This document shows positions 16,546 through 23,636 of a DNA stretch of 23,937 nucleotides, in pieces. The notes beneath the pieces were generated by a model. The model ran no database searches. It saw nothing but the letters and a program-made list of their open reading frames with translations, and was not told where the DNA came from. Every line of letters begins with the position of its first letter. Position 1 is the stretch's first letter. The stretch spans positions 1-23,937 of IMG/VR virus record IMGVR_UViG_3300018080_002477. One strand, written 5' to 3'. This stretch comes from a virus. Both the position numbers and the translations under genes were made by a program.

Positions 16546-17244
16546 GTGCCCGCACAACACGAGTACATCAACGAGTCACTACGTCCCCTCGCGGTCCCGA
16601 TCGCGGGGCTCACTTTGGACCCCAAGAACGCCCGGAAGCACAACCAGCGCAACCGGGAGGCCACCATGGCCAGCTTGCGCCAGTCGGGGCAGGCCAAGTG
16701 CATCGTGGTGTGGCGCCAGACCGAGGAGCAGGGCGGCCGCGACATCGTGATCGCCGGCAACGGGACGGTGGACGCGGCCCTGGCCCTGGGGTGGACCCAC
16801 ATCGCCGCCAACGTCCGCACCTTCGACACGGAGGCGGACGCCATCGCCTACGGCCTGGCCGACAATCGCACCGCCGAGTTGGCGGAGTGGGACTACGAGG
16901 AGTTGGTGGGCCGTTTCGCGGACCTGGACGCCGCGGGGTGGGGCACCGCGGGTCTGGGGTGGGAGGACTACGAACTGGAACCCCTCATGAACGCGGAGTT
17001 CCAGACCCCGGACGTGGACCCGGACGCCGACCCCGCGGGGGACGACGGCAAGTCCGAGGACGCCATCGGTGGCGAGCCTGCCGAGGTGGGGGGCCGCAAC
17101 GGGGTCAAGGCGTGGAAGGTCCTCCTGTCCCCGGACCAAAAGGAGGAACTGGACACCCTCCTGGGCCCGGGGTGGGACGGTGACGACCTCGTGGACGCGG
17201 CGCGCACCAAGACCGCCGCGGCGCGGGAGGCCGCCAGTGCATGA
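16546..17244 (+). CDS. ParB-like domain protein upstream of dpdA
   Basis: A 232-residue protein. The N-terminal roughly 115 residues match ParB/sulfiredoxin-like domains: VPIAGLTLDPKNARKH (17-32), then a conserved IAGNGTVDAALALGW (69-83) where ParB proteins usually have a GHGR-like motif, then AYGLADNRTAELAEWD. The rest is acidic linker (DVDPDADPAGDDGKSED) and a C-terminal helix. GTG 16546 has AGGAGG upstream. Its stop overlaps the dpdA ATG, so the two are coupled. In bacterial Dpd systems a ParB-fold protein, DpdB, works with DpdA. This gene could be a functional counterpart, or a DNA-binding protein of another kind. Confidence 0.75.
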   Translation: MPAQHEYINESLRPLAVPIAGLTLDPKNARKHNQRNREATMASLRQSGQAKCIVVWRQTEEQGGRDIVIAGNGTVDAALALGWTHIAANVRTFDTEADAIAYGLADNRTAELAEWDYEELVGRFADLDAAGWGTAGLGWEDYELEPLMNAEFQTPDVDPDADPAGDDGKSEDAIGGEPAEVGGRNGVKAWKVLLSPDQKEELDTLLGPGWDGDDLVDAARTKTAAAREAASA

Positions 17245-18254
17245 CCACCGTGCGCCTGGCGGTGGGGATCACCGACCCCGCGCGCACGGTCAAGGCCTTC
17301 GGGGGGTTCATGCCTAGTGAGGACAGCCCCACTGTCCGAATGGCGGTCAACGACCGCACCATGGATCGCACCGTCCGCGCCTTCCCTCCCCGTGCTCCCC
17401 AGGGGGAGGCGCCAAACGTCCGGTTCGCCCTGGGGTCCAACGTGAATCACGCGATCACCGGCACCCAGGCCCGCGGCCCCGCGGCTGCGGACAGTCCAAC
17501 CATGCGTATGGCGCTGGTCACCAGCGAGCGCACGGTCATGGGCCTGGCCCCGGATCAAGGGGAGGAGCCCGCGGTGCTGGTGTCGTACTTCTACCTGTCC
17601 GGGTTCCTCAAGCACCGCCACCGCATGGGGTTTCGGGACTGGGTGATGGACAGCGGCGCCTACTCGGCGGCCAACAGCGGGGTCACCATCGACCTCCAGG
17701 AGTACATCGACACGTGCGCCCGGCTCCTGGAGGAGGACCCCAAGCTCACGGAGGTGTTCGGCCTGGACGTGATCGGGGATCCCGAGGCGTCCCTGCGCAA
17801 CTGTGAGGAGATGGTGCGCCAGGGGATCCCCGTGATCCCCACCATGCACATCGGGGAGCCCTGGGAGGTGGTCCAGGAGGTCAAGCGCTACCCCAAGTTC
17901 GCGGTGGGGGGCATGGTGGGACTCCACAAGGCGCGCAAGATCAAGTTCATCGAGCAGGTGTTCGCCCGCGCGTGGCCCCACAAGATCCACGCGTTCGGGA
18001 TCGCGAGCGAGGAGATCCTCATGCGGTTCCCGTTCCACAGCGCGGACGCGAGCAACTGGGAGACGGCCCCGTGCGCCTTCGGCAACTGGAAGGTGTACGG
18101 CAAGATGTCCGTCCGCGGCGGCACCCACCAACACCTCCGCGCCGAGATCGAGTGGTACATGGCCTTGGAACGCAAACTGCGGTTCCGGTGGCGCAAGGAG
18201 ATGGCGCGCCTGGACGCGCTCGACAAGGAAAGGGAGGCCGCGCGTGGGACGTAG
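17241..18254 (+). CDS. dpdA: DpdA-type DNA guanine transglycosylase
   Basis: A 337-residue TGT-fold enzyme expected to exchange guanine in DNA for a 7-deazaguanine base. Residues about 88-300 form the barrel: VLVSYFYLSG (112-121), MDSGAYS (136-142; D137 as the base-side Asp), GLDVIGDP (174-181; D176), AVGGMVGL (221-228), and HSADASNWE (266-274), where D269 fits the nucleophile position. The zinc-binding Cys cluster of tRNA-type TGT is not visible, as is usual for DpdA. Residues 1-87 are unusual: three extra copies of the segment that starts the barrel (see findings). ATG 17241 overlaps the ParB-like stop; M88 (17502) would give a start nearer the usual DpdA length. The QueD, QueE and FolE genes downstream make its substrate. 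Confidence 0.88.
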   Translation: MTTVRLAVGITDPARTVKAFGGFMPSEDSPTVRMAVNDRTMDRTVRAFPPRAPQGEAPNVRFALGSNVNHAITGTQARGPAAADSPTMRMALVTSERTVMGLAPDQGEEPAVLVSYFYLSGFLKHRHRMGFRDWVMDSGAYSAANSGVTIDLQEYIDTCARLLEEDPKLTEVFGLDVIGDPEASLRNCEEMVRQGIPVIPTMHIGEPWEVVQEVKRYPKFAVGGMVGLHKARKIKFIEQVFARAWPHKIHAFGIASEEILMRFPFHSADASNWETAPCAFGNWKVYGKMSVRGGTHQHLRAEIEWYMALERKLRFRWRKEMARLDALDKEREAARGT

Positions 18255-18699
18255 GCTGGAGACGATCACGGTGGGCCCCCTGGGCCTGGAGTTCCACAAC
18301 CTCAACTCCGCCATGAAGCTCAAGGGGCACCGCCACTACGGCACGGTGGAGGTGACGTTCCAGACCCTGGCGGAGGTGGGGTTCCCCGCGTTCCGGGACA
18401 CCGTGGAGCCCATGGAGGCCGCGATTCAGGAGGCCACCGCCGCGCCGTTCCGGGATCCGGGGACCAACGAACAGGTGGCGCAGGCCATGTTCGACCTGTT
18501 CGACGGGTGGGCCCACGAGTCCTGCCTCAAGTACAACGCCCCCGGCGCTATCCGCGGGGACACCTCCCGCCTCACCGCGGACGGGGAGGTGGCGTGCTTC
18601 CGCCTCCTGGCGATCCGCCTGGGGGTCATGGGGGTGCGGGACAAGATCGGCCACAACCCGGGGATGACCTACTACACCGTGAGCCGCGACCCGTTGTAG
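18244..18699 (+). CDS. Unknown protein within the 7-deazaguanine operon
   Basis: A 151-residue protein starting at GTG 18244, overlapping dpdA by 11 bases. I do not recognise the family. Near the start H18, H29 and H31 (LEFHNL...KGHRHYGTVEV) are arranged much like the zinc histidines of QueD-type T-fold enzymes (H-x14-H-x-H in E. coli QueD) and are followed by a beta-strand-like stretch. The rest (EPMEAAIQEATAAPF, NEQVAQAMFDLFDGWAHE, FRLLAIRLGVMGV) is helical. A T-fold relationship is a speculation. Its place between dpdA and queD makes it a candidate for a base-tailoring enzyme or a DpdA partner. Confidence 0.65.
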   Translation: MGRRLETITVGPLGLEFHNLNSAMKLKGHRHYGTVEVTFQTLAEVGFPAFRDTVEPMEAAIQEATAAPFRDPGTNEQVAQAMFDLFDGWAHESCLKYNAPGAIRGDTSRLTADGEVACFRLLAIRLGVMGVRDKIGHNPGMTYYTVSRDPL

Positions 18700-18720: not shown

Positions 18721-19188
18721 ATGCCCTACGTCTCGACCAAGACCTACACCCCCGGGTGGAGTTGCGCGTTCCGCCAGTGGCGCGCCACGCACTCCCACTG
18801 CTCCCTGATCCACGGGTACGCGCTGGGGTTCCACCTGGAGTTCCACAGCGCCACCCTGGACGACAAGAACTGGGTGATGGACTTCGGCGCCCTCAAGGAG
18901 GTCAAGAAGTGGCTGGAGGACACCTTCGACCACAAGCTCGTCCTGGCTGCCGACGACCCCGCCTTGGCGGCGATCCGCGGCCTCCCCGAGGGGGTGGTGG
19001 ACCTGTCTGTCCTTCCGGCGGTAGGGTGTGAGGCGTTCGCGGAGTACGTGTGGCGCCACGTGGACCAGTGGCTCCGCAAGAACGGCGCTTACCCCCGCGT
19101 CAAGATCGCCATGGTGGAGTGCCGCGAGCACGGCACCAACAGCGCCCAGTTCCGGGCGCCCAAGGAGTACCTGGATGGGAGTGCATGA
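18721..19188 (+). CDS. queD: QueD-like 6-carboxy-tetrahydropterin synthase (variant zinc site)
   Basis: A 155-residue T-fold protein that should convert 7,8-dihydroneopterin triphosphate to 6-carboxy-tetrahydropterin, the second step to CDG. SCAFRQWRATHSHCSLIHGY (14-33) holds the catalytic Cys C27 and H31, but the third zinc His of the usual HGH motif is Tyr 33. H24 or H26 may replace it, a layout I associate with phage-type QueD variants. VMDFGALKEVKKWL, FDHKLV (D70, H71) and MVEC (E133) match the family's catalytic positions. AGGAG lies just before ATG 18721. The stop is next to the small acidic gene. Confidence 0.82.
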   Translation: MPYVSTKTYTPGWSCAFRQWRATHSHCSLIHGYALGFHLEFHSATLDDKNWVMDFGALKEVKKWLEDTFDHKLVLAADDPALAAIRGLPEGVVDLSVLPAVGCEAFAEYVWRHVDQWLRKNGAYPRVKIAMVECREHGTNSAQFRAPKEYLDGSA

Positions 19189-19189
19189 C

Positions 19190-19426
19190 ATGGAGAACGA
19201 GTCCCCTGCGGCCAACGGCTTCCGCGAGATCCGGCGCCAAGTCGCGGGTCTGCGGAGCCGCAAGGTGACCCCCGCGGACGACGGGTACTACCACCTGTCC
19301 CTTCCCGCAGATCAGTGGGACGCCCTGGACCAGTGGATCGACAACGACCCCGACGACACGTTCGACCGGGACGGCGAGGACACCCTGGTGATCATCGGCG
19401 CCAAGGTGACCAAGGGGGGCGCGTGA
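19190..19426 (+). CDS. Small acidic unknown protein
   Basis: A 78-residue protein between queD and queE. ATG 19190 has GGGAG about nine bases upstream; GTG 19181 is an alternative. The C-terminal half is acidic (WIDNDPDDTFDRDGED) and ends in a beta-like [14 protein letters not shown]. There is no recognised motif. It overlaps the queE GTG and is co-translated with it, so it may assist the pathway, but nothing else supports a function. Confidence 0.6.
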   Translation: MENESPAANGFREIRRQVAGLRSRKVTPADDGYYHLSLPADQWDALDQWIDNDPDDTFDRDGEDTLVIIGAKVTKGGA

Positions 19427-20112
19427 CCTACCGGGTCAAGGAGGTGTTCGCCACTCTCCAGGGGGAAGGCCTCCACGCCGGCCGCGCGTCGGTGTTCCTT
19501 CGGTTCGCGGGGTGCAACTTGTGGAATGGCCTGGACAAGGACCGCGCCAGAGATGCGGAGCGCAACGGGGCCAAGTGCCCAGTGTTCTGCGACACGGACT
19601 TTGTGGGGGGTGACACCCTCACCGCCGCGGAGGTGGCCGACCGGGTGGTCCTGGCGGCCCAGGACGCAGGCATGGACCCTCCGCCGTTGATCGTGATCAC
19701 CGGGGGCGAGCCGTTCCTCCAGATCGACCGCGAGCTGATCCAAGCCCTCCGGGGCGCGTACCCCGACGCCATCCTGGCGGTGGAGACCAACGGCACCGTG
19801 GCCCCCAAGGTCCCCCACGGGGTGCGGGAGGGTGTGGACCACGTGTGCGTGAGCCCCAAGACTCCCCCCGACCGGATCGTGATCCGCCGCGGCACGGAGT
19901 TGAAGGTGGTGGTCCCCAGCTACAACCCCCAGGAGTACGCGGAGATCACCGCGGGGTTCGACCACCTGTTCGTGAGCCCGGAGGCCGTCCCCCACGCCGT
20001 GGGGGTCTCCGTCCTCAACGTGGACAACATCCGCCGCGCCGCGGCGTACTGCCAAGCCTTCCCGGAGTGGCGCCTGTCCCTCCAGACCCACAAGATCACC
20101 GGAGTTCCATGA
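19423..20112 (+). CDS. queE: QueE-like 7-carboxy-7-deazaguanine synthase
   Basis: A 229-residue radical SAM enzyme that rearranges 6-carboxy-tetrahydropterin to CDG. It starts with GTG ([16 protein letters not shown]), matching QueE N-termini. The cluster cysteines are C31, C52 and C56 in FAGCNLWNG and [12 protein letters not shown]. The spacing is C-x20-C-x3-C, unlike the usual C-x14-C-x2-C of bacterial Que[10 protein letters not shown] is the SAM-binding GGE motif, and AVETNGT and CVSPKTPP are typical QueE segments. Its end overlaps the folE ATG. The product CDG is either used directly or goes on to preQ0 through a QueC not seen here. Confidence 0.88.
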
Positions 20113-20681
20113 AGCCCAGCCGCCAAGAAGCCGAAGCCGCAGTCCGCACTCTGATCCGCTGGGCGGGGGACGACCCCGACCGGGAGGGACTTGTCGGGAC
20201 GCCAGATCGCGTGGTTCGGTCCTACGAGGAGTTCTTCGGGGGGTACGACGCCGATCCGGCCGCCATGCTGGCCAAGACCTTTGAGGAGACCGAGAGCTAC
20301 GACGAGATGGTGGTGCTCACGGACATCCGCCTGGAGTCCTACTGCGAGCATCACATCGTGCCGATCATCGGCACCGCCACGGTGGCCTACCTGCCGCGCG
20401 ACCGGGTGGTGGGGATCTCCAAGCTGGCGCGGGTGGTGGACGCGTTCGCCAAGCGCCTCCAGATCCAGGAGAAGCTCACCCGTCAGATCGCGGACACGAT
20501 CCAGGAGGCGCTCAACCCCCTGGGCGTGGGTGTGGTGATCCGCGCGCAGCACCAGTGCATGACCACCCGCGGGGTCCACAAGACCGACGTGGCCATGGTG
20601 TCCTCGGCCCTCCTGGGCAAGTTCCGCGACGACCCCAAGGTGCGGGCCGAGTTCCTGGCGCTCGCTCACCCGCGCGGGTGA
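20109..20681 (+). CDS. folE: GTP cyclohydrolase I
   Basis: A 190-residue type I GTP cyclohydrolase that makes dihydroneopterin triphosphate from GTP, the first step toward 7-deazaguanines (and folate). [18 protein letters not shown] (24-41) is the family's early motif. The zinc ligands are C79 and H82 in SYCEHH and C150 in [10 protein letters not shown], and [20 protein letters not shown] is the typical core. It is complete and close to the usual length. A GGAG lies before ATG 20109, which overlaps the queE stop. It is the last gene of the operon. An 18-bp palindrome spans its stop codon. Confidence 0.95.
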
Positions 20682-22721: not shown

Positions 22722-23636
22722 ATGACCACCACCACCACCACCACCACCACACTCACCTTCCTCGATGGCCGGTCAGCCGCCGACCTCCCACCCCTTGGGG
22801 ACTGCGGGTTCGTGATCGCGCGCGGGTTCCTCAACGCCGACCAAGTCCGCGCGGAGTGGGGTGATGCCGCCCAGAACGAGGGCCTTGCCTGGCTCGCGGA
22901 CACCGACGACGGGTTTGACTCCTGGGAGGCGGCGGCCACTGCCGCCTTCAAGTTGTCCAAGGGCCGCCGCAAGGCCCTCGTGGACGCGTTGTCCAAGGTC
23001 CAGGGGTGGCGCTACCGTAACGAGGAGTCCCCCATGGGGTACGCCCCCGATCACTGGCAGTGCCGGGTCAACAGCCGGGGCAAGTACCAGGGCGAGGGGT
23101 CGGCGTTGATCCACGGGTACAAGTCCCTCCTGGACGACGGCCTTCTCCGCGGCTCGGTGACGGCCACGTATGAGCACTACAAGTCCACCACGGGGGACTA
23201 CAACGGCAGCCGGGTGTACCTGCACGGCATGTCCCCCCGCGCCGAGCAGATGGCGTGGTGCCTCCGCATCATGCACAAGCCCATCGGGTCGATCCCCCAG
23301 GGGGTGGACCCCGAGGTGGTGTGGTCCAAGCTCAACGCCGCCGCGCGGGAGATGCTGATCGCCATGGGCCGGGGGGTCCTTCGGGCACCATCGTCCACCC
23401 GCCAGTTCCGCCGCGGCCGGATCGAGGGGGTCACCCGGGCCCAGAGCGGCGCCATCCGAGCCCTGGAGAACCGGGGGTTCATCCGGGTCACCGACCGCAA
23501 GAAGGTGGACGACGGGTGCGGGTCCACGTTCGTGGAACTCACCTACCGGGTCCCCCGCGGGTCCCAGTTGGTCCGCTTCGCCGCCCGGTACGACATGGAC
23601 TGCGCCAACGCCCTCCTCCTGGCCCACGAGGACTAG
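22722..23636 (+). CDS. Unknown protein with poly-Thr N-terminus
   Basis: A 304-residue protein. It opens with Met and nine Thr residues encoded by eight ACC codons then ACA, a microsatellite-like run. The body is soluble and mixed alpha/beta: GFVIARGFLNADQVRAEW, AAATAAFKLSKGRRKALVDALSKVQGW, MAWCLRIMHKPIGSIPQGVDPEV, and a C-terminal part (about 215-285, TRAQSGAIRALENRGFIRV) that resembles a winged-helix or MarR-like readout of a strand and turn. This last point is tentative. It has AGGA upstream and a strong terminator downstream. Function is unknown. Confidence 0.7.
   Translation: MTTTTTTTTTLTFLDGRSAADLPPLGDCGFVIARGFLNADQVRAEWGDAAQNEGLAWLADTDDGFDSWEAAATAAFKLSKGRRKALVDALSKVQGWRYRNEESPMGYAPDHWQCRVNSRGKYQGEGSALIHGYKSLLDDGLLRGSVTATYEHYKSTTGDYNGSRVYLHGMSPRAEQMAWCLRIMHKPIGSIPQGVDPEVVWSKLNAAAREMLIAMGRGVLRAPSSTRQFRRGRIEGVTRAQSGAIRALENRGFIRVTDRKKVDDGCGSTFVELTYRVPRGSQLVRFAARYDMDCANALLLAHED

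Follow-up and report, generated by a model that had tools for sequence, protein, structure and literature searches.

Gene organization

The window, the whole 23,937-nucleotide stretch that was analysed, was a 23.9 kb fragment of an IMG/VR virus record and not a whole phage. It carried a modification gene cluster in the single-strand order ParB-dpdA-X-queD-orf78-queE-folE, in which the neighbours of gene X were assigned by PHROGs and Pfam. The cluster genes and the motifs of X given below were all on the plus strand. The first gene of the cluster was ParB-like (16546..17244), and its stop codon overlapped (ATGA) the start of dpdA (17241..18254; phrog_887, E 3e-31), which encoded a homologue of DNA-guanine transglycosylase. 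Gene X (18244..18699) came next and was followed by queD (18721..19188; CPH4 synthase; PF01242, E 2e-17), queE (19423..20112; radical SAM 7-carboxy-7-deazaguanine (CDG) synthase; phrog_2076, E 2e-25) and folE (20109..20681; GTP cyclohydrolase I; PF01227, E 1e-71). No QueC (PF06508) was found in the window.

Gene X started with GTG, had a GGGAGG-like ribosome site close upstream and overlapped the end of the dpdA ORF (18254) by 11 bases. Based on the ORF list, the homologues and the predicted fold, it encoded a 151-aa predicted T-fold protein in the position that queC occupies elsewhere. The initial annotation had placed an unrecognised gene between dpdA and queD with this same overlap, and the coordinates agreed. 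The family had no entry in Pfam, PHROGs or NCBIfam, in line with that description, and X belongs to a previously uncatalogued family. A weak match to phrog_12936, a family of minor tail proteins (E 0.022), was dismissed as chance.

The QueD of the window displayed HGY at the position of HGH in 18 other aligned QueDs, which placed a tyrosine at a zinc-ligand histidine (H33 position). In the alignment it retained C27, D70-H71, E104 and E136.

Homologues and distribution of X

A tblastn search of 50,697 phage records returned seven matches to X (E 1e-13 to 1e-15), all of them in Mycobacterium phages: Typha and Bipper (two records each), Hilltopfarm, Nadezda and Cracklewink. In the four mycobacteriophage regions inspected, X lay directly between dpdA and queD and was labelled 'hypothetical protein'. 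A search of IMG/VR with a single X sequence gave no relative, and what succeeded there were hand-made protein-motif patterns in DNA. The pattern for the C-terminal motif D-x-IGH-xx-G-x-T-x-Y retrieved 17 additional loci, and an independent pattern for the N-terminal motif F-x-N-x-N-xx-M...H-x-H retrieved 16 more. The set therefore comprised the window, four phages and 33 IMG/VR records, that is, 38 records with 37 distinct sequences.

Homologues in the same slot of Mycobacterium phages, the 33 further IMG/VR records and a dN/dS of ~0.14–0.38 between close X pairs indicated that X was a genuine gene and not a chance ORF. GTDB genomes searched with a three-sequence X alignment yielded no relative. 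A stricter motif scan of GTDB with exact patterns yielded no X either, so that within the limits of such patterns the family looks restricted to phages.

Linkage with dpdA and exchange with queC

The gene dpdA was present in 36 of the 38 X records, the remaining two being contig ends, and queD in 37, with the lone exception again at a contig end. The proposed co-occurrence of X with dpdA was thereby borne out. Whole records were also scanned for QueC (PF06508); phages carrying queC served as positive controls and were detected, and the X records included complete mycophages of 75–78 kb and contigs of up to 115 kb. QueC was missing from 37 of the 38. The sole X record with a canonical QueC, G010, carried it at G010:C1:6745-7365, ~37 kb from the X cluster near 43–45 kb. 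X occurred in none of 80 IMG/VR queC loci, 42 of which contained dpdA.

The Mycobacterium phages displayed the same exclusion in their record counts: DpdA and QueE were each found in 52 records, QueC in 45 and X in seven, and 45 + 7 = 52. The queC genes of Quesadilla and Funsized were located between dpdA and queD, the exact position of X in Bipper and Typha. The DpdA tree (85 rows) contained 10 changes between the queC and X labels, at least six of which were forced by well-supported branches, and the highest identity of the window DpdA (56%) was to a queC-associated DpdA. The slot, the counts and the tree together show X and queC to be exchangeable modules, placed between upstream enzymes that stay the same and DpdAs that are related. 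QueC absence was tied to X more strongly than the initial annotation could see, as X and queC substitute for each other.

No DpdA residue tracked queC versus X after relatedness was controlled for. A search for additional X-specific partner genes returned mainly ParB, terminase and the cluster genes already known, together with noise from antisense ORFs. Tandem dpdA pairs were observed in several X clusters (L008 108-1870, L014 1325-3138 and L017 1512-3298).

Cellulophaga phage phiST (L202/L203) possessed FolE, QueE and QueD and had neither QueC nor X. It is a different QueC-less arrangement, and therefore X is not needed by every QueC-less phage. A gene annotated as a phosphoribosyltransferase was located ~20 kb away from the FolE/QueE/QueD genes of phiST.

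Predicted fold of X

AlphaFold2 (AF2) modelled the window protein with a 19-sequence alignment at a pLDDT of 84.9, and the IMG/VR member L010 at a pLDDT of 93.7 and a pTM of 0.87. Both models had the outline of a beta-beta-alpha-alpha-beta-beta T-fold. The leading Foldseek matches in the PDB were PTPS/QueD, dihydroneopterin aldolase/epimerase, QueF and GTP cyclohydrolase, with PTPS first (E 2.7e-3, probability 0.99, and E 2e-2, probability 1.00, for the top PTPS matches of the models), and the TM-scores ranged from 0.4 to 0.6. Against viral predicted structures, the top three matches were PTPS/QueD proteins. The E-values were modest, and the T-fold was assigned because the matches agreed among themselves.

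At the profile level, hhalign comparisons of X with QueD (probability 3.9), FolE, QueE and QueF (probability 3.7) gave nothing significant, PF01242 did not match X, and one member reached only E 0.05 against the QueF family PF14489. The models thus provided good support for X as a predicted T-fold protein with QueD as its nearest relative by fold, and membership in QueD was unsupported by profiles. A fold related to nucleobase chemistry had been named beforehand as the test of the gene's proposed role, and AF2 and Foldseek pointed to such a fold, nearest QueD/PTPS.

Conserved residues

The N-terminal signature F17-x-N19-x-N21-xx-M24-x-L-xx-H29-x-H31 (18292..18336) was present in 37 of 37 distinct sequences, except that L26 was found in 35. 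The C-terminal signature D133-x-I-G-H137-xx-G-x-T-x-Y144 (18640..18675) lay in the loop joining strands 3 and 4, and D133, H137 and Y144 occurred in all 36 X sequences covering the region. Each sequence set had been retrieved through a motif at one end of the protein, so that the N-terminal invariants are unbiased in the set found with the C-terminal motif, and the C-terminal ones in the set found with the N-terminal motif. T74-N75-E76 (18463..18471) was located at the start of helix 2, and E76 was conserved in every X sequence covering it. An 18-residue insertion (residues 101–118; 18544..18597) was found in the window copy only and formed a low-confidence stretch of the model.

Some of these features were shared with QueD/PTPS (PF01242). 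In addition to the predicted beta-beta-alpha-alpha-beta-beta fold, the HxH of X, like that of QueD, stood where strand 2 begins, and T74-N75-E76 fell in the register of the QueD PTxE motif in an hhalign alignment that was itself non-significant. The initial annotation had compared H18, H29 and H31 with the zinc histidines of T-fold pterin/deazapurine enzymes. All three were present in the window copy and H29 and H31 were invariant (37/37), but H18 was not conserved, its place in the rest of the alignment being taken by Gly, Ser, Thr or Cys. The invariant residues near position 18 were N19 and N21. Aligned by motif spacing rather than by structure, X keeps the HxH of the His...HxH triad and has an invariant Asn in place of the first His. 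Among the 37 sequences there was neither a conserved Cys nor a conserved adjacent Asp-His, whereas the QueDs of the same loci had both; X in turn has a new D-x-I-G-H loop. Judging from conservation, N19/N21, E76, D133 and H137, together with H29/H31, likely form the active site, and D133/H137 are candidates for a catalytic Asp/His.

Proposed function of X

QueC converts CDG to preQ0 using ATP, and the substrates of T-fold enzymes are small purines and pterins. We propose, with a probability of roughly 0.55, that X takes the place of QueC as a T-fold nucleobase enzyme in a QueC-less branch of 7-deazaguanine DNA modification in phages, and that it is most likely a CDG decarboxylase that supplies 7-deazaguanine to DpdA. 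The slot and the fold are well supported; CDG as the substrate, the decarboxylation and the roles of the residues are what we infer. FolE, QueD and QueE form an established route that stops at CDG (PMC6884629, PMC13329287). Free CDG would then be bound by X in a T-fold purine/pterin pocket. X would most likely strip the 7-carboxylate by acid-assisted protonation of C7, without a cofactor, to give 7-deazaguanine. It may use the conserved N19/N21/H29/H31 site, which is possibly metal-binding, and D133/H137 in this step. Finally, DpdA would swap guanine in the phage DNA for 7-deazaguanine.

CDG was chosen as the probable substrate because the occupant of the QueC slot would most economically use the substrate of QueC. 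X shares with QueC (PF06508) the gene slot, the position in the pathway and the one-for-one swap. It differs in its predicted fold, in its size (about 130–150 aa compared with 220 aa) and in having no PF06508 match and no ATP-pyrophosphatase or zinc-Cys motif. With a base-binding fold, no match to an ATP enzyme and no conserved Cys, decarboxylation would be the simplest reaction, and it is presumably the main one-step reaction of a 7-carboxylate without ATP or NADPH.

QueF and QueF-like proteins, which were among the lower-ranked Foldseek matches, are also T-fold enzymes that alter the 7-substituent. QueF, however, acts on a nitrile through a catalytic Cys, and the lack of a conserved Cys in X disfavours chemistry of the QueF type. 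The QueF precedent, together with the slot and the queC exchange, would also fit a case in which X replaced QueC but converted CDG otherwise, to an amide, an ester or another 7-substituent, and the DNA then carried a base other than 7-deazaguanine. We consider this unlikely, as a protein of ~130–150 aa with no match to a nucleotide-binding family and no conserved Cys seems poorly equipped for activating a carboxylate.

That X is no enzyme but a partner protein, delivering CDG to DpdA as a carrier or as a specificity subunit and thereby leading to dCDG in the DNA, is rather improbable. X is usually immediately downstream of dpdA, T-folds bind the base, and CDG is the default end of a QueC-less pathway, all of which would fit such a partner. 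However, X was not adjacent to dpdA in some records (L033, L034), the invariance of its His, Asp, Glu and Asn residues suggests catalysis, and the gene with which it trades places across the DpdA clades encodes an enzyme, QueC. It is very improbable that X works as an additional or auxiliary QueD (CPH4 synthase) that might offset the H33Y change in the window QueD. That tyrosine and QueD/PTPS as the nearest fold would agree with such a role, but QueD was present in all X records except one contig end, the motif is intact in the other aligned QueDs, X has no Cys and Asp-His catalytic set, and X tracks the absence of QueC rather than defects of QueD.

For the preferred reading, X as a CDG decarboxylase, a precedent is found in the tubercidin pathway, in which homologues of FolE, QueD and QueE occur, CDG is used without QueC, and decarboxylation has been proposed for the UbiD-type TubF (PMC6112128). 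What TubF has in common with X is that CDG is used in the absence of QueC and is then proposed to lose its carboxylate; TubF differs from the small T-fold protein in being a prFMN-dependent UbiD-family enzyme of 422 aa with a proposed nucleotide substrate (PMC6112128).

The initial annotation had regarded X as a candidate component of the modification pathway with a QueD-like histidine pattern. A real, conserved predicted T-fold protein tied to QueC loss upheld the first part, and the zinc triad, Cys and Asp-His of QueD were not present as such. Its alternative suggestion, an essential DpdA cofactor, gained no support.

In their abstract, Cui et al. (2023, NAR) reportedly describe phages with dDG and dCDG and a predicted CDG decarboxylase, DpdL. 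DpdL and X have the same proposed reaction, pathway and phage setting. X may be DpdL itself, related to it or unrelated, and the chance that X is DpdL is a little better than even. More tentatively, X may be an undescribed T-fold family that is not DpdL and carries out a new reaction on CDG, either cofactor-free decarboxylation or another tailoring, with QueC and X interchangeable and DpdA kept. If so, phages would switch their DNA base chemistry through QueC/X modules while DpdA is retained.

Bipper was reported to miss only QueC, and its host M. smegmatis has no preQ0 pathway (Hutinet 2019; PMC6884629). How the pathway ends in Bipper and other QueC-less phages had not been settled in 2019, and X is a concrete candidate for that final step. 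The queC/X exchange predicts the base carried by each phage, and X may serve as a marker for metagenomic phages whose modified guanine is a different one. A decarboxylating T-fold enzyme could be tested in a small, cultivable system, Bipper or Typha in M. smegmatis.

Other features of the window

The DpdA of the window had an N-terminal extension of ~100 aa (17241-17560) with imperfect repeats (SPTxRMA.../RTV...), which the DpdAs of Typha and Bipper did not have. The 78-aa ORF in the queD-queE interval (19190-19426) matched no family and was unannotated in the Typha and Bipper clusters. Close to its left end (28-205), the contig carried 12-bp tandem repeats of AGGGTGTTCCCA (6.9 copies) and AAGGGTGTTCCC (4.1 copies). 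An (ACC)n run at 22725-22750 encoded a poly-Thr stretch at the beginning of the ORF that started at 22722.
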